A stretch of 50,433 bases of DNA from Burkholderiales bacterium (lineage in GTDB: Bacteria > Pseudomonadota > Gammaproteobacteria > Burkholderiales > SG8-41). The notes beneath the pieces were generated by a model. That model did no database searches and was not told where the DNA came from. It saw nothing but the letters and a program-made list of their open reading frames with translations. Positions 550-10,499 of this stretch are shown one piece after another. The DNA lies in the NCBI GenBank assembly GCA_030833315.1, contig JAURHM010000002.1, forward strand, positions 65,323 to 115,755. Reading direction: 5' to 3'. The position numbers and the translations under genes were made by a program. Numbering within the stretch: the stretch's first letter is position 1; every line of letters starts with the position of its first letter.

Positions 550-1215
550 TTACGGCAGCGCTATCGGCGTGTCGATGAACACCTGATACTTCTGGCTTTT
601 GGGTTTGTCCCGGTCTTCTGCGTTGACGTAGCTGATCGACGATTTGCCGAGCAGTTCGCGCGGCAGGATCATCACCCGGGCGAATGCCGAGGCTTCGTTT
701 TTTGCCGCAGCGGCGTACACCGGATCGGGCCCGGCTTCGAACCACGGCTCCAGCGGCGCGTAATGATGCAGCGTGCCCTGGGTGTGGATGTCGATGCCGC
801 CGGACAGCAGGCAGCGGATGCCGCCGCCTTGATGGGTGTGCGTCAGCGCTTCGCCGCCGGGCGGAAAATCGACGCGGTCGCCGCGCAGCAGGTACTGGCG
901 CGAAGAGTCCAGCATCATCGCCGCCTCCAGCAACAGGCGGCTGCTGACCCCGGGACCGTTGGCCAAAGCAGCTGCGGTTGCGGCGGCAGTCAATTCCCAG
1001 CGCAGCACCAGCGTGGCGAGGTGGCCGCTGTTGAGTTGCAGCGCGGCCGCACTGGTGTATGCGCTGTTGGCGCCGAGGGTGGCTTGCAGTGCATCGCCGG
1101 TGATGCGCAATCCGCCCGACACCACGTAAACCAGCCGTACCGCATGGCCTGCGGGCAGGGCATAGGCCGTCTGCGGCGCGAGTTCGTCGATATACAGCCG
1201 AAGTTTGTGGCTCAT
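550..1215 (-). CDS. cupin-domain protein, function unknown
   Basis: A 221-residue protein of two cupin-like halves. The second half has a recognisable cupin motif 1 (GEALTHTHQGGGIRCLLSGG), with His residues suited to metal binding; the first half has a weaker beta-barrel pattern. No signal peptide is visible, so it is probably cytoplasmic. Its ATG overlaps the stop of the upstream lyase gene (ATGA at 1212-1215), which implies translational coupling and a shared pathway. Cupins in catabolic operons are often dioxygenases, isomerases or small-molecule sensors; nothing here fixes which. The family call rests on the motif and length only. Confidence 0.75.
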   Translation of the reverse strand: MSHKLRLYIDELAPQTAYALPAGHAVRLVYVVSGGLRITGDALQATLGANSAYTSAAALQLNSGHLATLVLRWELTAAATAAALANGPGVSSRLLLEAAMMLDSSRQYLLRGDRVDFPPGGEALTHTHQGGGIRCLLSGGIDIHTQGTLHHYAPLEPWFEAGPDPVYAAAAKNEASAFARVMILPRELLGKSSISYVNAEDRDKPKSQKYQVFIDTPIALP

Positions 1216-2117
1216 AACGCGGCGCGCTGGTCTTCGGGCAGGCCGTAGCGGTTTTCGAGTTCCTGGACTTCCGGCAGGCCGGCGATATCGGTGAACTGCT
1301 TGAAGTTCGCCACCTTGTCGCGCATATGGGCGATGGAACCGGTTTTTTTCAGTTCGCGCAGCAGGTTCTGCATCGCCGGAATCGCCGCGAGCAGCATCCA
1401 GTTCGGATAAATCGCCAGCTTGAAGCCCAGCCTGCCGAGTTCATCCGCCGGAAGATCCGGGGTTTTACCGCTGGCAGCCATGTTGTAGAGCAGCGGTACG
1501 CCCTTGAAGCGTTTCGATACGACTTCGACCTGCTCGCGGCCTACCGGCGCTTCGATGAACAGCACATCGGCGCCGGCCTCACGGTAACGTTCGCCACGCT
1601 CCAGCGCCGCGTCAATGCCTTCGATGGCGATGGCATCGGTGCGGGTGATGATCACAAAATCGTCGTCGCGCCGCGCATCGCAGGCCGCCTTGATCTTGGC
1701 GACCATTTCCGCAGTCGGGATCACGCGTTTGCCGGCGAGGTGGCCGCAGCGTTTGGGCCAGGCCTGGTCTTCAAGATGCACGCCTGCAACACCGGCTTTT
1801 TCATAATCGCGGATGGTTCGGCGGGTGTTGATCGGATTGCCGTAGCCGGTGTCGGCGTCGGCGATGACCGGCAGCTCTGAAGCTTCAGCGATGCGGCTGG
1901 CGTTGTCGATCATTTCGGTCGCGGTGAGCAGGCCGACGTCGGGCATGCCCAGACGGGTCAGGCTGGTGCCGAAGCCGGTCATGTATACCGCATCAAAACC
2001 TTCCATCTTCACGAGGCGCGCGCCGAAGGCGTCGGCGACGCCGGGGGCGACGAGGCAACCGGGACGGGCCAGCAGTTCGCGCAGTCTTGCGGTTTGACGC
2101 AGGATGATCTTGCTCAT
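1212..2117 (-). CDS. isocitrate lyase/PEP mutase superfamily protein (2-methylisocitrate lyase- or oxaloacetate decarboxylase-like)
   Basis: A 301-residue TIM-barrel enzyme that cleaves or rearranges a C-C or C-P bond next to a carboxylate. Seen: the Mg-binding segment IADADTGYGN (residues ~85-94), and the loop EDQAWPKRCGHLAGK, whose Cys124 in KRCGH is the catalytic cysteine position of the isocitrate lyase/methylisocitrate lyase group. The length fits PrpB-like lyases. The ATG at 2117 has GAGGAA six bases upstream. It sits between a Bug gene and the cupin gene and is coupled to the latter. With the nearby PrpD-like gene it recalls a methylcitrate-type route, but no citrate synthase or AcnD is present, so the substrate is open. 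Confidence 0.88.
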   Translation of the reverse strand: MSKIILRQTARLRELLARPGCLVAPGVADAFGARLVKMEGFDAVYMTGFGTSLTRLGMPDVGLLTATEMIDNASRIAEASELPVIADADTGYGNPINTRRTIRDYEKAGVAGVHLEDQAWPKRCGHLAGKRVIPTAEMVAKIKAACDARRDDDFVIITRTDAIAIEGIDAALERGERYREAGADVLFIEAPVGREQVEVVSKRFKGVPLLYNMAASGKTPDLPADELGRLGFKLAIYPNWMLLAAIPAMQNLLRELKKTGSIAHMRDKVANFKQFTDIAGLPEVQELENRYGLPEDQRAAL

Positions 2118-2136: not shown

Positions 2137-3099
2137 TTATTCGAATTTCAGGTTGAGCTGTTTGACCAGCGTCCGCCACTGTTCCAGTTCGTCGCGGATG
2201 CGCGTGGTGAATTGCTCAGGCGAACTCGCGCCGGGGTTGGCGCCGAGCCCGCGGAAGCGTTCCGCCACCGCATTGTTGTCCATGATTTTTCGCACGGCGG
2301 CATTTAGTTTGCCAACCACCGGCCTGGGCGTTCCCGCCGGCGCGAGCAGGCCGAGCAGCGTCGCTGCCTGGTAACCCTTGTAACCCAGCTCTTCCAGGGT
2401 CGGTATATTCGGCAGCGCTGCCGCACGTTGTTGTGTGGTCACCGCCAGCACCTTGAGACGGCCGTCGCGCACATAACCGATGGATGCCGCGAGCTGGTCG
2501 ATCATCGTTTCCACCTGACCGCCGAGCAGCTCCGACAGCGCCGGGCCACTGCCTTTGTACGGCACGTGCAGCAGTTTCACATTGGCCATGTGCGCGAACA
2601 GTTCAATCGCAAAATGATTGGTGGTGCCGGCCCCGGCCGAAGCCATGGTCAGCTTGCCCGGACGCGCCTTGGCGGCGGTGATAACGTCGGCAATTGAATT
2701 GATATTCGACTTCGGCCCGGCGAGCACGACCAGCGGCACCGCCTGCACAGTGGAGATCGGCGCAAAATCCTTCAGCGTGTCATAGGGAAGGTTTTTGAAA
2801 ATCACCGGATTCACCGACAGCGGACCGCTCGAACCGACCAGCAGCGTGTAACCGTCGGGCGTGGCTTTGGCTACCAGGGATGCGCCGAGATTGCCGCCGG
2901 CGCCCGGACGGTTGTCCACCACCACCGTTTGCCCCAGGACCTCACCCAGCGGCGGCGCTATGATGCGCGCCGAGATGTCGACATTACCGCCGGGTGCATA
3001 GGGCACGATGACGCGGATCGGTCGTGTCGGAAACTGTTCTGCCGCACTCACCGGAGTGACCATCGCAGCCAGCGTCAACAGCATCAGGATTTTTTTCAT
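2137..3099 (-). CDS. TctC/Bug family substrate-binding protein
   Basis: A complete 320-residue periplasmic binding protein. The signal peptide MKKILMLLTLAAMVTPVSAAE is followed by FPTRPIRVIVPYAPGG, DNRPGAGGNLG, KATPDGYTLL and the hinge motif VPYKGSGPALSELLGG, all typical of the Bug fold. GGGAGGGA stands just upstream of the ATG. It lies 27 bases after the MmgE/PrpD stop and 19 bases before the lyase start, so it is within the same transcription unit. No TctA or TctB membrane partner is present in the window. The ligand is not predictable; the neighbours suggest a di- or tricarboxylate. Confidence 0.93.
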   Translation of the reverse strand: MKKILMLLTLAAMVTPVSAAEQFPTRPIRVIVPYAPGGNVDISARIIAPPLGEVLGQTVVVDNRPGAGGNLGASLVAKATPDGYTLLVGSSGPLSVNPVIFKNLPYDTLKDFAPISTVQAVPLVVLAGPKSNINSIADVITAAKARPGKLTMASAGAGTTNHFAIELFAHMANVKLLHVPYKGSGPALSELLGGQVETMIDQLAASIGYVRDGRLKVLAVTTQQRAAALPNIPTLEELGYKGYQAATLLGLLAPAGTPRPVVGKLNAAVRKIMDNNAVAERFRGLGANPGASSPEQFTTRIRDELEQWRTLVKQLNLKFE

Positions 3100-3126: not shown

Positions 3127-4485
3127 TCAGCCCGCAGCCCGTTTCGATACGCTCCCGGTATCGTAATCGACGTTGGCCAGTTTTTCGGTGTCCCACAATT
3201 GTTTCAGCAGTGAGGCCGCAGCGCCCTTGCCGATTACCGGCTCGGCGAGTTCGAGGAATTTGCCGTTCAGCTCGTCATCGGTCAGCGGCAGCTCCGGATC
3301 GCCTTTGCGGTAGGGCTGGAAATGCTCGAACTTTCGGCCGTCGTTCAGTTCGATCTCTACCCGTGATTCGCGGCGGTTCGGGTAACCGGCAGAAATGTCG
3401 GGATCTGCGATGGGCTCGATCTTTTTCAGCAGCGCGCGCACGTCGGGATCGTTGAGGTGATCCGAATCGAAGGCATTCAGCCGCACGCTGCCGCGCACCA
3501 GTGCGTGGGCGACGGTGTACTGGATGCTGAACTTGGCCTGGTATTCGCCTTCGGGATTGTTGTTGTCGATGATGTTGAGGCCGGCCTTGTAGGTGTGCAG
3601 CTTGATGTGTTTCACATCCTTGTGGGTGAAGCCGTGTTGCTGCTGCAAGTGCAGCGCGCCGTCGATCGACGGGAAGGTGTGGCCGCAGCAGCCGTGGTTT
3701 TTGAAGGTCATCTGGTTGATGTGGTAATCGACCCCCAGACCCTTGGTCGCCTTGCTCCAGTCGGGATTCACGCTCATCGCGTTGCCGAAACCGACTTCGC
3801 CCTCGAGCATGTCGAGCGCACCGGTAAGGCCCTTCATCGCCGCCATCGCCGCCCAGCACCCGGCGTCGGCCGCATGGCCGCCGTGCAGCGGCTTGGTCAT
3901 CGCCTGCGAACGGAAGGCCTGCTGCAGGCCGGAGGCAAAACTGCCGACGGTGGCCATCGCGTGCATGAACTGTTCCTTGTTGGCACCGAGGATGGTCGCC
4001 GCGGCTGCAGCAGCGCCGAAGGCGCCAACGGTGCCCGTGGTGTGCCAGTACTTGTAATGCGAAGGCATCACCGCTTCACCGATGCGTGTGGAGATTTCAT
4101 AACCGACGATCACGCCGCGCAGGAAACGGTCACCCGAAGTACCGGAAGCCTGTGCTGCGGCCAGTGCTGCTGAAATCGTCGGGCTGCCCGGGTGGTAACC
4201 GGCATCGCGGTAGATGTCATCGAACTCGACTGAGTGGGAGGCCGCACCGTTGATCAGTGCGGCTGCGCGCAGCGTAGCGCGACGGCCGGTGGCCAGACGG
4301 GCGCGGCCGCGGTCAAGATCCTCGGCAAAGGCTTCTTCCATCAGCACCGCCGGATTGACGATGCTGCCCGGCAGCAGCGCGGCATACCAGTCGATCACCG
4401 CGCGTTTGGCGTGGTGAATCACCTGCGGCGGCAGCTTCGATGTCTGTTCGCGGATGGCGTAGTCAGCGAGTTGTTCCATCAACAT
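3127..4485 (-). CDS. MmgE/PrpD family protein (2-methylcitrate dehydratase-like)
   Basis: A 452-residue protein of the MmgE/PrpD family, whose known members dehydrate 2-methylcitrate or related hydroxyacids (PrpD, IDS-epimerase, cis-aconitate decarboxylase). Seen: an all-helical N-terminal domain with the family segment SVEFDDIYRDAGYHPGS, the KPLHGGHAADAG motif, and a C-terminal region rich in H/G (FKNHGCCGHTFPSIDG). The start at 4485 has AAGGAG seven bases upstream and overlaps the end of the redoxin gene by 7 bases. A second PrpD-like gene lies at 10500-11906. The substrate is unresolved; general carboxylate dehydratase or epimerase is the safest call. Confidence 0.9.
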   Translation of the reverse strand: MLMEQLADYAIREQTSKLPPQVIHHAKRAVIDWYAALLPGSIVNPAVLMEEAFAEDLDRGRARLATGRRATLRAAALINGAASHSVEFDDIYRDAGYHPGSPTISAALAAAQASGTSGDRFLRGVIVGYEISTRIGEAVMPSHYKYWHTTGTVGAFGAAAAAATILGANKEQFMHAMATVGSFASGLQQAFRSQAMTKPLHGGHAADAGCWAAMAAMKGLTGALDMLEGEVGFGNAMSVNPDWSKATKGLGVDYHINQMTFKNHGCCGHTFPSIDGALHLQQQHGFTHKDVKHIKLHTYKAGLNIIDNNNPEGEYQAKFSIQYTVAHALVRGSVRLNAFDSDHLNDPDVRALLKKIEPIADPDISAGYPNRRESRVEIELNDGRKFEHFQPYRKGDPELPLTDDELNGKFLELAEPVIGKGAAASLLKQLWDTEKLANVDYDTGSVSKRAAG

Positions 4486-4994
4486 GTTTTTTCTCCTTGA
4501 GCTGCAGTTTTGACGAGGGCCGCTCTCACTACCGAGCTCACGTCGTTAGGCGTGAGCCGGCCGATCGGTCCGGTTGAATAGGTGGCAACTTGTACGGTCA
4601 GATCGGGTTTGAGCAGGAATCCTGTGGCTTGCAGGATTTTGCGCTCATGCTCGATGAATGCGCCAGTGCGGCGGCTGATGTTCTGATAATCGAGACTGTG
4701 CGCGACCGGATATGCCAGTTTCTGCGTATCAACGGTTTTACGCGCTTCTTCCGGTGTATCCACCGAAGCCGCGATGACGGCGACGCCAAGCTGCTTCAGG
4801 TCGGGCAGCCAGGTCTGGTAGTCAGCCAACTGCTGACGGCAGTATCTTCACCAGTCGCCGCGGTACAAGAGCATGACGCTCCAGCCGCTGCCGGCCAGCG
4901 CCGAAATGTGTTGTGGCCCGCCGCCGACCAGCGACAGATCCAGATCGGGGAAACGGTCCCCCGTGTCCAGTTTGTTGCCCAGACTTTGTGCCAC
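4479..4994 (-). CDS. peroxiredoxin-like redoxin with in-frame TGA at the active-site cysteine (probable selenoprotein)
   Basis: AhpC/TSA-like thioredoxin-fold protein, 171 residues if TGA at 4848-4850 is read as selenocysteine (U49). From GTG 4994 (GGAGGAG eight bases upstream) the frame runs open through GDRFPDLDL and SGWSVMLLYRGDW to the TGA. It continues in the same frame as RYCRQQLADYQTWLPDL and on to the stop. Cysteine-containing relatives read YRGDWCPYC here, so U49 replaces the peroxidatic Cys and C52 is the second Cys of a UxxC motif. A hairpin of bacterial SECIS geometry follows the TGA. Downstream it overlaps MmgE/PrpD by 7 bases; upstream lies the CoA ligase. A nonsense mutation is the alternative, but frame and motif conservation on both sides argue against it. 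Sel genes are not in this window. Confidence 0.82.
4815..4842 (-). promoter_or_regulatory. candidate bacterial SECIS element
   Basis: Directly downstream of the in-frame TGA (4848-4850), the minus strand carries a perfect 17-nt hairpin at 4821-4837: stem GUCAGC/GCUGAC with loop AGUUG. It starts 10 nt after the TGA. A lower CUG/CAG stem (4840-4842 with 4815-4817) is separated by a small internal loop. Known bacterial SECIS elements lie inside the coding region just after UGA. E. coli fdhF needs about a 17-nt upper hairpin roughly 11 nt from the UGA, with a G near the start of the apical loop. The loop here has G in second position, 16 nt plus one base after UGA. The geometry fits; SelB binding is inferred. 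Confidence 0.65.
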
Positions 4995-5011
4995 GTGTGA
5001 CGCTCCTCCGC

Positions 5012-5046: not shown

Positions 5047-7119
5047 TTAGCGGACGATCAAGCCGTCCACCGCCACCACGCCGTCGCCTTCTTTGCGGAC
5101 GATCAGCGGGTTGATTTCTGCTTCGGCGATGTCATCGAAGGCCGCGAGTTGCGAGAATGCTGCAACCGCTTCGGCCAACGCTTTGCAATCACCCTTGGCC
5201 ATGCCGCGGTAGCCGCGGATGACGGCGAGGCCTTTGATCTCTTCAATCATCTGCAGCGCGGTTTCCGGTGTCACCGGCGCCAGGCGCATTGCAAAATCCT
5301 TGTAGATCTCGGCAAGGATGCCGCCGACGCCAATGACCACCAGCGGCCCGACCTGAGGATCGCGCTTGTAACCCACGATCACTTCGGCAAGGCCGCGCTC
5401 CATGCGCTGCACCAGGATGCCGTTCAGTTTGGCCTGCGGATGTTTGGTTTTGACGCGGGTAAAGATGTCGGTCGCTGCCTGCTTCAGCGCTGCCGCATCG
5501 GCGATATTCAGCACCACGCCGCCGGCATCGGTCTTGTGCGCGATGTCCGGAGACAGAATCTTGGCGACCACCGGATAACCGATATCAATCCTGGCGCCGG
5601 CATCGGTCATCACTGCAGTCTGCGCCTGCGGCACGCCCAGTGCGCCGAAGACGCCGCAGGCCTGCTGTTCGTTGAGCTGTTTGCCCGGCGCCGCTTTCAG
5701 CAAGGCGTCAGCCGCTGCGGTGCGTTTGGCATCCGCTGCCGGAATCGCCAGCGGCGGAACCCATTGTTTCCAGGCGCGAATCGAATCGGCGCAGGACTCC
5801 GGCGTGCGGAAGCCGGCAACGCCTGCACTCGCCAGCAGCTTCAGCGAAGCTTCGGCATGCGGCGCGAGGAACACCGCCAGCGCCTTGTCGCCGCGGTCGG
5901 CTTCGACCAGCGGTTCGACGGCGATCTGCGGCTGGAACTGTGCCGAGCTGCCGGCCACCGCGAGCACCAGGTCGCAATGGTCGGAGGCCAGCAGCGCATT
6001 GAGTACGCCGCCGTAGATTTCCTTTTTAGCGCCGGCCAGCGTCAGGTCGGTGATACGCGATTTGTTGATCGTGATGTTTTTCTGTGCGAGCGCATTGACC
6101 AAGGCATCGGTAGGGCCGACGACGTCAACGCCGTAAGTGCCGATGCGGTCGACCACACAGGCTGCGCCGCCGCCGGTGGTGGTCATCGCCGCCACACGGT
6201 GTTTTTTGTTGGGTTTGCGGCCTTTGACCAGCGCCGGCAGTTCGAACAGCGCTTCCAGCGTATCGACGCGCAGCATGGCATGCGACTTGAAAAAGGCATC
6301 AACCGCTTCATCGGTACCGGCCATCGCGCCGGTGTGGGATGCCGCCAGATCCTGCCCGACTTCGGAGCGGCCGAGTTTGTAGACGATCACCGGTTTGTTG
6401 GCGTTGTAGGCGCGGCGCGCGGCATCCGCAAGGTGTTTGGCGTCGCGGATGGTTTCCATGAACAGCAGGATCGCGTCGGTATGCGGATCGTCGACCAGCA
6501 GGCCCGCCAGTTCCCCCACGCCGAGGTCGGCCTCATTGCCGACGGAAATCAGTTTCGAGAAACCGACGCCGCGGCCGAGACCTCGCGACATCAGGCCGCC
6601 CATCATGCTGCCCGACTGCGACACGATGGCCAGCCCGCCGGGGGTGATTTCCAGTTTTTCGAGAACGGCATTCACCGACAGCGCGAGATGGGTCTGCGTG
6701 CTCATCAGGCCGATGCAGTTCGGGCCGACCAGACGCGTATTGCTGCCGCGGATGATCTCGTTCAGTTCCAGCTGCTTGATGCGGCCTTCAGCGCCGGTCT
6801 CGGCGAAGCCGTCGCTGTACACCGTGACTACGGGAATTTTTTTGGCGACGCACTGCTTGACCGCTTCGGGCACGGCTTTGGCCGGCACCATGACAAAGGC
6901 ATGATCGACTTCACTCGGAATCGACGTGACGTCGGGATAAGCCTTGTCGCCGAAAATTTCAGCACGCGCCGGGTTCACAGGAATCAGCATGCCCTGGTAA
7001 CCGTGGCGCTTGAGATAGCGTTGCGGGCGGGAGGTGTTTTTCTTTTCGTCGCTCGACGCGCCGATCAGCGCGATGGAGCGGGGATCAAAAACGGCTTGAT
7101 AGAGTTTGTTGTTGGACAT
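5047..7119 (-). CDS. acetate--CoA ligase (NDP-forming) family acyl-CoA synthetase
   Basis: A 690-residue fused acyl-CoA synthetase. N-terminal CoA-binding Rossmann domain (FDPRSIALIGASSDEKKNTSRP), two succinyl-CoA ligase-like domains including GLAIVSQSGSMMGG and the phospho-His segment AASHTGAMAGTDEA, and a C-terminal ATP-grasp domain (YPVVAKILSPDIAHKTDAGG; GVGGILAEIYKDFAMRLAP). It makes an acyl-CoA from a carboxylate, ATP and CoA via acyl-phosphate and phosphohistidine. ATG 7119 (MSNNKLYQ) is preferred because it begins at the conserved domain; an in-frame GTG at 7143 would add 8 residues, and neither has a strong ribosome binding site. It lies between acyl-CoA dehydrogenase and the redoxin, consistent with activating the substrate of this operon. 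The acid used is unknown. Confidence 0.92.
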   Translation of the reverse strand: MSNNKLYQAVFDPRSIALIGASSDEKKNTSRPQRYLKRHGYQGMLIPVNPARAEIFGDKAYPDVTSIPSEVDHAFVMVPAKAVPEAVKQCVAKKIPVVTVYSDGFAETGAEGRIKQLELNEIIRGSNTRLVGPNCIGLMSTQTHLALSVNAVLEKLEITPGGLAIVSQSGSMMGGLMSRGLGRGVGFSKLISVGNEADLGVGELAGLLVDDPHTDAILLFMETIRDAKHLADAARRAYNANKPVIVYKLGRSEVGQDLAASHTGAMAGTDEAVDAFFKSHAMLRVDTLEALFELPALVKGRKPNKKHRVAAMTTTGGGAACVVDRIGTYGVDVVGPTDALVNALAQKNITINKSRITDLTLAGAKKEIYGGVLNALLASDHCDLVLAVAGSSAQFQPQIAVEPLVEADRGDKALAVFLAPHAEASLKLLASAGVAGFRTPESCADSIRAWKQWVPPLAIPAADAKRTAAADALLKAAPGKQLNEQQACGVFGALGVPQAQTAVMTDAGARIDIGYPVVAKILSPDIAHKTDAGGVVLNIADAAALKQAATDIFTRVKTKHPQAKLNGILVQRMERGLAEVIVGYKRDPQVGPLVVIGVGGILAEIYKDFAMRLAPVTPETALQMIEEIKGLAVIRGYRGMAKGDCKALAEAVAAFSQLAAFDDIAEAEINPLIVRKEGDGVVAVDGLIVR

Positions 7120-7169
7120 GGCGCAATAAAAATTGCTGCGCACGGGGCGCGGCAGGGTTATCGGTCAGA

Positions 7170-8324
7170 TCAGGCCTTCGGTGGGCGCTGCGAGAAGCTG
7201 CGCTCGAAAATGCCTTCGGCGATACGGTTTTTCAGAATTTCAATCGAGCCGCCGGCAATCATCCAGCCGCGGCATTTGCGGAAGCAGTATTCGACCAGCG
7301 ATTCGTCGGTATAGCCCATGCCGCCCATGATCTGCATGGCTTCATTGCAGATGTCGAAGCCGGCCTGGTTGCAGAAGGCCTTGGCGATTGCGGTGTCATC
7401 GGCCGACGGTATACCGTTGTCGGCGTTCACGGCGGCCCGGTACAGCAGCAGCTGGCCGGCATCGAGTTTCATTTTCATGTCGGCGAATTTCCACTGCAGG
7501 CCCTGGAATTCGCACAACAGGCGTCCGAACTGCTTGCGCTGCAGCGCCCATTCGCGGGCGATGTTGTAGGCATAACGGCCGAAGGCCAGCGAACGTGCGG
7601 TGTTGCCGATGCGTTCGACGTTGAATCCCGCGATTTGTTTCTTGAAGCCACCTTCCTTGAGCATCACGTTCTCGGGGCCGACGTAGACGTTGTCGAGATA
7701 GGTTTGCACCCACTCTTCGCCGTTGAGGAATTTTGCCGGTGCGCCTTGCTTGAAGCCCGGGGCATCGCGCGGAATCAGCACTGAGCCGATGCCGCCGACC
7801 CCGGGGCCGAAACGGACATAGGTCAGCATCACGTCGGCGTAGGACGCGTGCGTCTGGAACACCTTCACGCCGTTGATGCGGTAGCCCTCGCCATCGGGTG
7901 TTGCCGAGGTTTTCAGGTCGGTGACCGCGGAGCCCGCTTCCGGTTCGGTCATGCCGACGGTGATCACTGATTCACCGGCGAGAATTTTGTCGAGATAACG
8001 TTTTTTCTGGTCTGGCGTGCCGTACTCTGCGAGCACACGCACCGGACCGAAGTTGCCGGCCTGGATCACGTCGGCGCTGCGCGGGCAGACCGAAGCAATG
8101 GTTTCAATGGCGATGATGGCGTCCATCAGCGAGCCGCCTTGGCCGCCGTCTTCTTCCTTCATCGTGATGCCCATCAGACCCTGTTCGGCCATCAGCTTGG
8201 CGACATCCCAGGGATGTTCTTCCTGATGCGCGCGCTTCAGCGCGCCGTCGCGCAGATGGCGCTCGGCAAAACCGCGCACGGCGTCGCGGAACTGTTCCTG
8301 TTCGGGGGTAAAGTGGAAATCCAT
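7170..8324 (-). CDS. acyl-CoA dehydrogenase
   Basis: A 384-residue FAD-dependent acyl-CoA dehydrogenase. N-terminal helical domain begins MDFHFTPEQEQFRDAVRGFA; the flavin-binding strand region has VTVGMTEPEAGSAVTDLKTSA; the C-terminal helical domain has AREWALQRKQFGRLLCEFQG and ends with QIMGGMGYTDESLVEYCFRKCRG. It oxidises an acyl-CoA at the alpha-beta bond and passes electrons to ETF. It is first in the minus-strand run ending at the left edge; a plausible promoter lies at 8355-8383. The CoA ligase follows after about 50 bases. The substrate chain cannot be told from sequence; the last residues near the active site differ from those of the glutaryl-CoA dehydrogenase at 31457-32659. Confidence 0.93.
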   Translation of the reverse strand: MDFHFTPEQEQFRDAVRGFAERHLRDGALKRAHQEEHPWDVAKLMAEQGLMGITMKEEDGGQGGSLMDAIIAIETIASVCPRSADVIQAGNFGPVRVLAEYGTPDQKKRYLDKILAGESVITVGMTEPEAGSAVTDLKTSATPDGEGYRINGVKVFQTHASYADVMLTYVRFGPGVGGIGSVLIPRDAPGFKQGAPAKFLNGEEWVQTYLDNVYVGPENVMLKEGGFKKQIAGFNVERIGNTARSLAFGRYAYNIAREWALQRKQFGRLLCEFQGLQWKFADMKMKLDAGQLLLYRAAVNADNGIPSADDTAIAKAFCNQAGFDICNEAMQIMGGMGYTDESLVEYCFRKCRGWMIAGGSIEILKNRIAEGIFERSFSQRPPKA

Positions 8325-8469: not shown

Positions 8470-9423
8470 TTATTGCAGGACAAGGCCTGCGGCCTTTACC
8501 ACCTTGCCCCATTTCACGACTTCGCTTTTGAGAAAGCTGCCGAATTCCTCCGGCGTGCCGGTCACTGGTTCGGTGCCGGATTTGGCCAGCAGATCCTGGG
8601 TGCGCGGCGTGGCCAGTGCAGCGTGCACCGCCTGATTGATCTTGAGAACGACGTCGCGCGGCGTATTGGCGGGTGCGAGCATCGCGTTCCAGCCGCCGGC
8701 TTCGTAGCCGGGAACACCGCCTTCGTTGATGGTCGGCACATCGGGCAGGGTTTTCGAGCGTTTGGTCGAACTGATACCCAGCGCGCGCAATTTTCCCGCC
8801 TGCACCGGCGGCACCGCGGCGGCGACCGGTGCGAAAGTCATGTGCACGTGGCCGCCCATGGTTTCTGCCACCGCCGGCGCCGCGCCTTTATACGGGATGT
8901 GGCCGACATTCGCGCCCGACAGCATATTGAACAGCACCAGAGCGAGATGGTTGGAGCTGCCGACGCCAGCGGATGCCGAATTCAGCGTTTTCGGATGCGC
9001 CCGGTCGAGCGCAATCAGTTCACGGACGGATTTCGCCGGCAGCGACGGATGCACCACCAGCACATTGGCTTGATTGACGATCAGTCCCACCGGTGCGAGA
9101 TCGGTCAGCACGTTGTAACCGAGCTTCGGATACACCGCCGGACTGCTGGCGAGTGCGGTGGTGCCGTACAACAAGGTATGACCGTCGGCTGCGGCGCGCA
9201 CCACGGATTCGGTACCGATATTGCCGCTGGCGCCGGCGCGGTTGACCACCAGCACATTCTGTTTCCATGACGTGGTCATGTGTTCGGCGATCGAACGGGC
9301 AATCAGGTCCGCGGACCCGCCGGCCGGGAAGGCCACCACCATGGTGACGGTTTTTTCAGGATAGTTCTGGGCGCCGGCCTGGGTGCTTAGCAGCAAGGAA
9401 GCCAGCAGAACACGGAAGCGCAT
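8470..9423 (-). CDS. TctC/Bug family substrate-binding protein
   Basis: A 317-residue periplasmic binding protein. Signal peptide MRFRVLLASLLLSTQAGAQ, then YPEKTVTMVVAFPAGGSADLI (the usual APGG is PAGG here), VNRAGASGNIG, and the hinge motif IPYKGAAPAVAETMGG. GAGGAG stands eight bases before the ATG. It follows the SMP-30 gene after a 113-bp gap that contains a hairpin (9503-9530) and ends a five-gene minus-strand run. No transport membrane subunits are nearby. The ligand is unknown; the neighbouring lactonase and SDR hint at a sugar acid or hydroxyacid. Confidence 0.93.
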   Translation of the reverse strand: MRFRVLLASLLLSTQAGAQNYPEKTVTMVVAFPAGGSADLIARSIAEHMTTSWKQNVLVVNRAGASGNIGTESVVRAAADGHTLLYGTTALASSPAVYPKLGYNVLTDLAPVGLIVNQANVLVVHPSLPAKSVRELIALDRAHPKTLNSASAGVGSSNHLALVLFNMLSGANVGHIPYKGAAPAVAETMGGHVHMTFAPVAAAVPPVQAGKLRALGISSTKRSKTLPDVPTINEGGVPGYEAGGWNAMLAPANTPRDVVLKINQAVHAALATPRTQDLLAKSGTEPVTGTPEEFGSFLKSEVVKWGKVVKAAGLVLQ

Positions 9424-9502
9424 GCGAACGTCTCCTCACGGGGGTTTGGGACGGAGAAGCTGCCGTGTTTATCCGGCTTCAATTCATTAAAGGTGAACCC
9501 TT

Positions 9503-9530
9503 ACAGCCTGTCAACGCGCTCACAGGCTGT
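9503..9530 (-). repeat. hairpin between SMP-30 and Bug genes
   Basis: ACAGCCTG (9503-9510) and CAGGCTGT (9523-9530) form an 8-bp stem with a 12-base loop just after the SMP-30 stop. There is no T-run after it on the minus strand, so it may be a stability or processing hairpin rather than a complete terminator. Confidence 0.5.
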
Positions 9531-9536
9531 GCGACA

Positions 9537-10439
9537 TCAGGGATACATCGCCCAGCCCGTGCGATCGGTTTCCGCACGGAAGAAATGACCCTGGGTGGTA
9601 GTGACAAACAGCGTTTTCATGTCAGGACCGCCGAAACAGCAATTGGTCGGACGGATTGCCGGCACCGGATGCGTTTCGAGGACGCGCCCGGTCGGCGAGA
9701 ACACATAAATCATCGGGCCCGCACCGGCGACTTCCCAGCCCGCCGTCGCGACAATATTACCGTCAACATCCAGCGTCATCCCGTCAATGCCGCGATGGAT
9801 GTCGCGATAGTCTTCACCCCAGGTGAACAGCGTCTTGTATGGACCGAGACTGCCGTCATCGCGGATCGGATAGGCGCGCAGTTCGCGCGCGATGCCTGCA
9901 GTGAAACTGCTCTCCGCGACATACAGCGTGCTCTGGTCCTGCGATACCAGGATGCCGTTGGGCTGCGTGGTGTCAAAGACGACGCGGGTGATCGAGTACG
10001 TGCCATCCTTCTGCGGATCAAGACGGTAAACCGAACGGTCTTCCAGCTCCTGCTTTTCCGTCTTGTCGACGTTGCCGTCGTTCCAGGGATTGGTAAACCA
10101 GATGCGGCCCTTGCGATCAATCGCGAGGTCGTTCGGCGTATTCAGGCGCTTGCCTTCGAACTTGTCGGCAATCACCACGTTTTTGCCGTCGGGATCAAAA
10201 CGCATCACGCTGCGCCCGCCCTGAGAGCAGCCGAACAGCCGGCCCTCGGCATCGAAGGCCAGTCCATTGACGCGGTCCAGTCCGCTACGCCAGGGCGTTA
10301 TGGCGTTGGTCTTCGGATCGCAACGGAAGATCGTATTGGCGTGGATGTGTGTGAAATAGATGTATTCGCCATCCCACACCGGGCCTTCGGTAATCGGCAG
10401 ACCGTCCGGTTTTTTCAGCAGCTCGAATGTCCACGCCAT
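9537..10439 (-). CDS. SMP-30/gluconolactonase/LRE family protein
   Basis: A 300-residue six-bladed beta-propeller of the SMP-30 family, which hydrolyses sugar-type lactones using one divalent metal ion. Seen: ITEGPVWDGEYIYFTHI near the N-terminus (metal-binding Glu in EGPVW), LNTPNDLAIDRKGRIWFTNP (metal-binding Asn in the PND motif), TQPNGILVSQDQSTLYVAE (second conserved Asn), and a conserved Asp in GIDGMTLDVDGN. No signal peptide, so probably cytoplasmic. GGAG stands nine bases upstream of the ATG. It lies between MmgE/PrpD and a Bug protein, suggesting a lactone intermediate in this module. The exact lactone is not predictable. Confidence 0.88.
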   Translation of the reverse strand: MAWTFELLKKPDGLPITEGPVWDGEYIYFTHIHANTIFRCDPKTNAITPWRSGLDRVNGLAFDAEGRLFGCSQGGRSVMRFDPDGKNVVIADKFEGKRLNTPNDLAIDRKGRIWFTNPWNDGNVDKTEKQELEDRSVYRLDPQKDGTYSITRVVFDTTQPNGILVSQDQSTLYVAESSFTAGIARELRAYPIRDDGSLGPYKTLFTWGEDYRDIHRGIDGMTLDVDGNIVATAGWEVAGAGPMIYVFSPTGRVLETHPVPAIRPTNCCFGGPDMKTLFVTTTQGHFFRAETDRTGWAMYP

Positions 10440-10458
10440 GATGTCGGTCTCCGGTATT

Positions 10459-10490
10459 CCCTCTCCCCGGGGGAAAGGGAGGGGGGGGGG
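10459..10490. repeat. GC-rich inverted repeat with G10 homopolymer
   Basis: CCCTCTCCCC is followed by GGGGGAAAGGGAG and a run of ten G (10481-10490) in the 60-bp gap between MmgE/PrpD (stop 10500) and SMP-30 (start 10439). It resembles the short CCCTCTCCC/GGGAGAGGG palindromic repeats scattered between genes in many proteobacteria. The homopolymer is on the untranslated leader side of the SMP-30 gene and could vary in length. Confidence 0.55.
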
Positions 10491-10499
10491 TAAAAACGA

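Follow-up and report, generated by a model that had tools for sequence, protein, structure and literature searches.

We report a gene on the minus strand of a Burkholderiales genome that belongs, by published description, with the UxxC peroxiredoxin-like (Prx-like) selenoproteins, and whose in-frame UGA codon very probably encodes selenocysteine (Sec), judging from its sequence and those of its relatives. The gene occupies positions 4479..4994 of the window, by which we mean the whole 50,433-nucleotide stretch of DNA that was analysed, and the UGA lies at 4848-4850. We are highly confident in the following explanation: the gene encodes a UxxC Prx-like redoxin, SelB and the Sec-tRNA would read the UGA as Sec by way of a hairpin, and residue U49 of the product would attack while C52 resolves. 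Four features of the sequences carry this explanation, namely a conserved TGA, a hairpin that covaries, the Sec machinery of the genome, and homologues with Cys at the same site. Together they lend weight to an earlier, sequence-only reading of the window, which had proposed Sec at the TGA.

The Redoxin Gene and Its Class

The reading frame runs from a GTG at 4994, with the ribosome binding site GGAGGAG (5003..5009, minus strand) eight bases ahead of it, to a terminal TGA stop at 4479-4481 (minus strand), and it is interrupted by a single TGA; frame, start signal, stop and internal TGA are all as the sequence-only reading described them. If the internal TGA is read, the product has 171 residues, and its redox site is Y-R-G-D-W-U-R-Y-C, which gives the UxxC (U49, C52) that had been predicted. 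The start at GTG 4994 is supported by the relatives, which at this position have GTG (L052, L053), a Val codon (L055) or Met, encoded by ATG (L054, L060). The mechanical list of open reading frames holds only the 116-aa part of the redoxin after the TGA (4479-4829, with a TTG start), so that a conventional gene call loses the catalytic part, as the earlier reading had warned.

Against AhpC-TSA (PF00578; cut-off 26), the read-through protein reaches 67.5 bits, and the match covers residues 12-135, crossing the internal TGA. The family membership proposed earlier is thereby upheld, and by sequence the protein would have a thioredoxin fold. No NCBIfam model reaches its cut-off on the redoxin.

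Passages of two papers (PMC13188914, PMC1088965) give Sec peroxiredoxins the pattern PxxxTxxU, and UxxC 'Prx-like' selenoproteins are described in passages of papers from 2005 and 2008 (PMC1088965, PMC2398784). The window protein has both an above-cut-off AhpC-TSA domain and a redox site of the form UxxC, as the Prx-like proteins do, and it does not have the PxxxTxxU arrangement, in which Sec stands at the peroxidatic position. When the protein is aligned by phmmer with the AhpC 1we0, U49 is matched with Ser44 (the T/S place) and C52 with Cys47, which we take to be the peroxidatic Cys; when it is aligned with ResA 4nmu, U49 and C52 fall on both Cys of the CxxC. Two claims of the sequence-only reading fail on this point: it had put the TGA at the peroxidatic cysteine, a place that C52 takes instead, and it had likened the protein to PrxU of Eubacterium acidaminophilum, which is a TxxU protein. 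PrxU does share with the redoxin the AhpC/TSA superfamily and a single Sec, but its Sec is at the peroxidatic position with Thr ahead of it, whereas in the redoxin Sec takes the Thr place and Cys the peroxidatic one. We consider it highly improbable, therefore, that the product is a peroxiredoxin of the PrxU type whose Sec occupies the peroxidatic site. The two share a Pfam family, and the redoxin has a weak match to the PrxU model NF040737, but this match reaches 28.2 bits against an equivalog cut-off of 270, Sec lies three residues ahead of the peroxidatic position, and the TxxU proteins found in this bacterial family do not look like it.

The redoxin is thus, by the published descriptions of the class, a further member of the known UxxC Prx-like selenoproteins (also named Prx-like 1 or Prx-like thiol:disulfide oxidoreductase), with which it has in common PF00578, UxxC, a putative bacterial SECIS and Cys homologues; it differs from them in sitting in a Burkholderiales catabolic operon. 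As a separate observation, TxxU peroxiredoxins with FTKTU and an in-frame TGA occur in two genomes of the same family (L137 and L138, in G233 and G131); relative to the UxxC redoxin, these proteins align by eye like AhpC.

Sec Machinery of the Genome and Its Relatives

The sequence-only reading named selA, selB, selD and tRNA-Sec as the genes to look for in this genome, and their absence as a point against it. All four are present in the host assembly (3.1 Mb, 105 contigs, 98.1% complete). The protein genes score 526 (selA), 423 (selB) and 414 bits (selD), each above its family cut-off; the tRNA-Sec scores 75.9 bits and is called SeC, anticodon tca, by ARAGORN; and selA, selB and tRNA-Sec all lie within 5 kb of contig C3.

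The genome's own selD (L104, G000:C51:34571-35500, minus strand) has an in-frame TGA (GGG*GCK) and, by its sequence, is probably a selenoprotein gene too. The best match to formate dehydrogenase alpha (L133, G000:C19:13-1851, minus strand) has Cys (RLCHASSV), and none of the 18 Fdh-alpha match rows of the genome contains a TGA in the part that contig ends leave for scanning, so that FdhA does not look like one of the Sec clients of this genome. A 2006 survey (PMC1794560) gives, in the parts consulted, a count of one for the selenoprotein families of Betaproteobacteria; in such organisms, according to its discussion, FdhA is the sole selenoprotein. With Cys in the FdhA match and TGA in selD and in the redoxin gene, the Sec clients found here therefore differ from the 2006 picture. 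A literature search on Burkholderiales selenoproteins returned nothing on the subject, judged by title, and terms for the redoxin or its lineage are absent from the main text of PMC12013277.

Strong tRNA-Sec matches (at least 71 bits) are found in 22 of the 24 other genomes that carry the TGA. None of 22 comparison genomes exceeds 49 bits; these are 22 of the 23 without selB over cut-off (G006, 68% complete, was dropped), and because they were selected for that property they check the threshold and not an association. SelB is over its cut-off in 20 of the 25 TGA carriers. Among the others, G059 (96% complete) and G052 (84%) have neither a strong tRNA-Sec nor selB over cut-off, and G315, G354 and G010 have only pieces of selB. 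Within the family, co-occurrence with selB proves little, since most members have selB regardless (66 of 74 genomes, with or without the redoxin gene). Outside the family, selB is over cut-off in 5 of 8 TGA carriers versus 7 of 30 other genomes from the order.

A Hairpin Downstream of the TGA

A candidate SECIS hairpin begins 16 nt after the TGA (4821..4837, minus strand), with a 6-bp stem and the loop AGTTG at 4827-4831. The published bSECIS model, as given in one part of PMC13188914, has a spacing of 16-37 nt, a loop of 3-9 nt, a stem of 4-16 bp, a G among the first two loop positions and an MFE of at most -7.5. The window hairpin falls within this model, with a spacing of 16 nt, a loop of 5 (AGUUG), a stem of 6 bp and G at place two, and its window version, folded alone, has -7.9 kcal/mol. 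The plain fold of the 67-nt stretch yields a z-score of only -1.1, which is not significant; the hairpin is short, and covariation was used in place of the 67-nt fold score.

Across 21 distinct sequences, 99.2% of hairpin cells are paired, compared with at most 50% when the hairpin register is slid. Both sides change in four of the six pairs, in one of them via a single sequence, and two pairs are invariant. The covariation score lies above all 500 shuffles, and 19 of the 500 have at least as many changing pairs; the count of further pair types is not above shuffles, being reached in 499 of 500. The changes lie mainly between two subfamilies and therefore represent few independent events.

We also drew codon-preserving shuffles of six sequences, using the codon usage of 12 window genes. 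The six-base pairing arises in 0.1-4% of these random sequences, and in 0.015-1.2% when the loop UU is added. Of the six possible Leu codons, the loop uses TTG in all 24 loci that have Leu there, whereas TTG accounts for 25 of 430 Leu codons in 12 window genes; in two other loci the loop codon is a Phe codon, TTT or TTC, and the loop AGUU survives this replacement of Leu (TTG) by Phe (TTT, TTC).

It is very unlikely, in our judgement, that the TGA is read in some other way, by near-cognate suppression or under a reassigned code, or that the gene makes two separate proteins with a restart. The list of open reading frames does offer a TTG start after the TGA (4829), but the AhpC-TSA match spans the TGA, the UxxC is conserved, and the genome has a full Sec system; moreover, the redoxin gene itself ends in TGA, so that TGA is not simply reassigned there.

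According to the explanation that we prefer, SelB with the Sec-tRNA would decode UGA 4850-4848 as selenocysteine on account of the hairpin 4837-4821 just downstream in the mRNA. In the protein, the selenolate of U49 would attack and the thiol of C52 would resolve; an Se-S bond would form between them, and a thiol system of the cell would then reduce it. Where Sec occupies the N-terminal position of a thioredoxin-type CxxC, it is expected to be the attacking group. For this reason we favour either thiol:disulfide reduction or peroxide reduction, in both cases with an Se-S intermediate; an organic disulfide, a protein disulfide or a peroxide are candidate substrates. We infer Sec insertion itself, as well as the chemistry, the substrate and the role of the redoxin in its operon.

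Conservation of the TGA among Homologues

The search of the order covered 300 genomes, 165 of which have some redoxin match at E 0.001. All ten matches below E 1e-22, the window's own gene included, have TGA at the same codon; this cut was picked after the gap was seen, and the rows next below it are without TGA. Three weaker order rows, among those listed, also contain TGA (L137, L138, L139), and in L139, a CxxC protein, the TGA looks like the ordinary end. In the family search, 17 of 74 genomes match the redoxin at 1e-15, giving 19 rows, and a single TGA is present in each of the 18 site-covering rows below E 1e-15, the 19th being a fragment that lacks the site. The four TGA-bearing near relatives and the one fragment that a scan of contigs yielded are genes already present among the family rows. 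Thirty-one rows, minus five duplicates, leave a union of 26 TGA loci in 25 genomes. All 26 best-scoring site-covering loci from the order and family searches carry TGA, in genomes that are mostly drafts. A class search with a hand-made blend of subfamily B found matches at E 1e-10 in 13 of 369 genomes, and among these only the own-genome row has TGA.

Plasmid homologues were found in 52 records, six of which were examined by motif scan. Five (L091, L092, L094, L095, L096) contain a Cys homologue, in every case with TGC at the position of the TGA, and the scan of the sixth, L093, which is annotated as two genes, found no Cys homologue. These plasmid redoxins, from Deinococcus, Mycobacterium, Mycobacteroides, Agrobacterium and Lichenihabitans, have the site YRGxWCP(Y/F)C and 35-45% identity to the window protein (rows fetched); they differ from it in having TGC, not TGA, and in a loop-place codon for Leu, Met or Val that is never TTG (0/5). 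Close homologues have TGA at the site, then, and more distant ones Cys; homologues with neither Cys nor Sec there, which the sequence-only reading would have counted against itself, are not what we find.

In a protein tree of 30 rows, 23 Sec rows split from 7 Cys rows by one change with support 94/93, in a tree that leaves out three Sec loci (L028, L029, L031) as well as the Cys matches of the order and in which long branches meet. The sharing of the TGA position by relatives is more than chance. That the gene is a pseudogene or a sequencing error, its Cys codon mutated or miscalled to TGA, is barely credible: the window alone could look so, and drafts contain errors, but the same TGA recurs across 25 genomes, in all 26 of the best-scoring loci, which excludes a base error in practice, the frame is open on both sides of it, and the hairpin covaries.

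The Operon and the Optional Redoxin

The neighbouring genes, all on the minus strand, agree with the earlier placement of the redoxin inside a CoA/organic-acid operon. The operon begins with a TctC-type solute receptor (8470..9423), an acyl-CoA dehydrogenase superfamily protein (7170..8324) and an ADP-forming acyl-CoA synthetase-like protein, or CoA ligase (5047..7143). After the Sec redoxin come an MmgE/PrpD family protein (3127..4485; nearest solved relatives iminodisuccinate epimerase and cis-aconitate decarboxylase), a second TctC-type solute receptor (2137..3099), a lyase of the isocitrate lyase/PEP mutase family (1212..2117; below equivalog cut-offs, nearest solved relatives petal death protein and dimethylmalate lyase) and a 221-aa protein with a sub-threshold cupin match only (550..1215). 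This operon probably breaks down organic acids. The redoxin stop and the MmgE/PrpD start overlap by 7 nt (ATGTTGA, 4479..4485, minus strand), with an SD-like AAGGAG nearby (4493-4498, minus strand). Elsewhere in the window, at 9465-10493, a 342-codon plus-strand ORF without a Pfam or NCBIfam match overlies a 300-codon minus-strand ORF.

The acyl-CoA dehydrogenase superfamily protein has IAGG where typical members have YEG, which presumably holds their catalytic Glu. It has IAGG in common with 5af7, which we take to be a 3-sulfinopropionyl-CoA desulfinase (the record itself says acyl-CoA dehydrogenase). Asp stands at the place of Arg84 of 5af7, a residue that we assume to have a functional role in the desulfinase, and the score against the desulfinase model NF042439 is 259 bits, under the cut-off of 600. 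A 3-sulfinopropionate-type pathway is thus supported neither by model cut-offs nor by residue 84; a link of the operon to sulfur-containing acids is possible. The 3,3'-dithiodipropionate cluster of Advenella mimigardefordensis, as described in part of PMC5373536, contains an acyl-CoA dehydrogenase-family desulfinase, two TctC and a small AhpD-type redox protein, with methylcitrate genes nearby. The window resembles this organosulfur cluster in its dehydrogenase-family enzyme, two TctC and small redox protein. It differs in that its lyases score under the PrpB/PrpD cut-offs, its enzyme has Asp for the Arg84 of the desulfinase 5af7, and no thiol dioxygenase is found among the window genes scanned.

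L052-L055 and L101 share the operon core for as far as their contigs extend, and L053 has an extra TctC. Within the genus, 20 of 21 genomes have the MmgE gene, and 19 operons can be scored (one contig ends too early, and one genome is without an MmgE match): the redoxin is present at the operon site in 6 and absent in 13. In the 13 operons without it, 54-164 nt separate the last aligned codon of the ligase from MmgE. The Sec redoxin gene is an optional extra within the operon. On the MmgE gene tree, which includes one long branch (L123), the carriers need two changes, and a single clade is rejected (AU p 0.0002); since the carriers are not one clade, there has been repeated gain or loss, or gene movement. 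The stop/start overlap pattern is found in five of the six carriers, as ATGTTGA in four and as ATGCTGA in L122, and the sixth, L116, is not caught by the pattern. Around the redoxin of five loci from other genera (L097-L100, L102), no such operon was detected; L099 and L102 have TctC matches only.

We suggest, with little confidence, that the redoxin may be an optional selenium-dependent module of an organic-acid operon, perhaps one whose acids bear thiols or disulfides, and that it may reduce a disulfide or peroxide of the pathway. Given the 7-nt overlap between the redoxin stop and the MmgE/PrpD start, read-through of the UGA could also couple the supply of selenium to translation of this next enzyme. 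The presence or absence of the redoxin at a fixed operon site within one genus makes the role of a Sec protein testable by means of near-identical operons.

In four genomes of other families (G002, G175, G271, G010), the redoxin gene adjoins tRNA-Sec (~26-318 nt apart, measured between match ends), and on the far side of the tRNA-Sec lies selB or a piece of it. Sec redoxin genes of subfamily B (L102, L125, L126, L127) are neighbours of tRNA-Sec in four genomes outside the family, and this neighbourhood would make a compact Sec locus.
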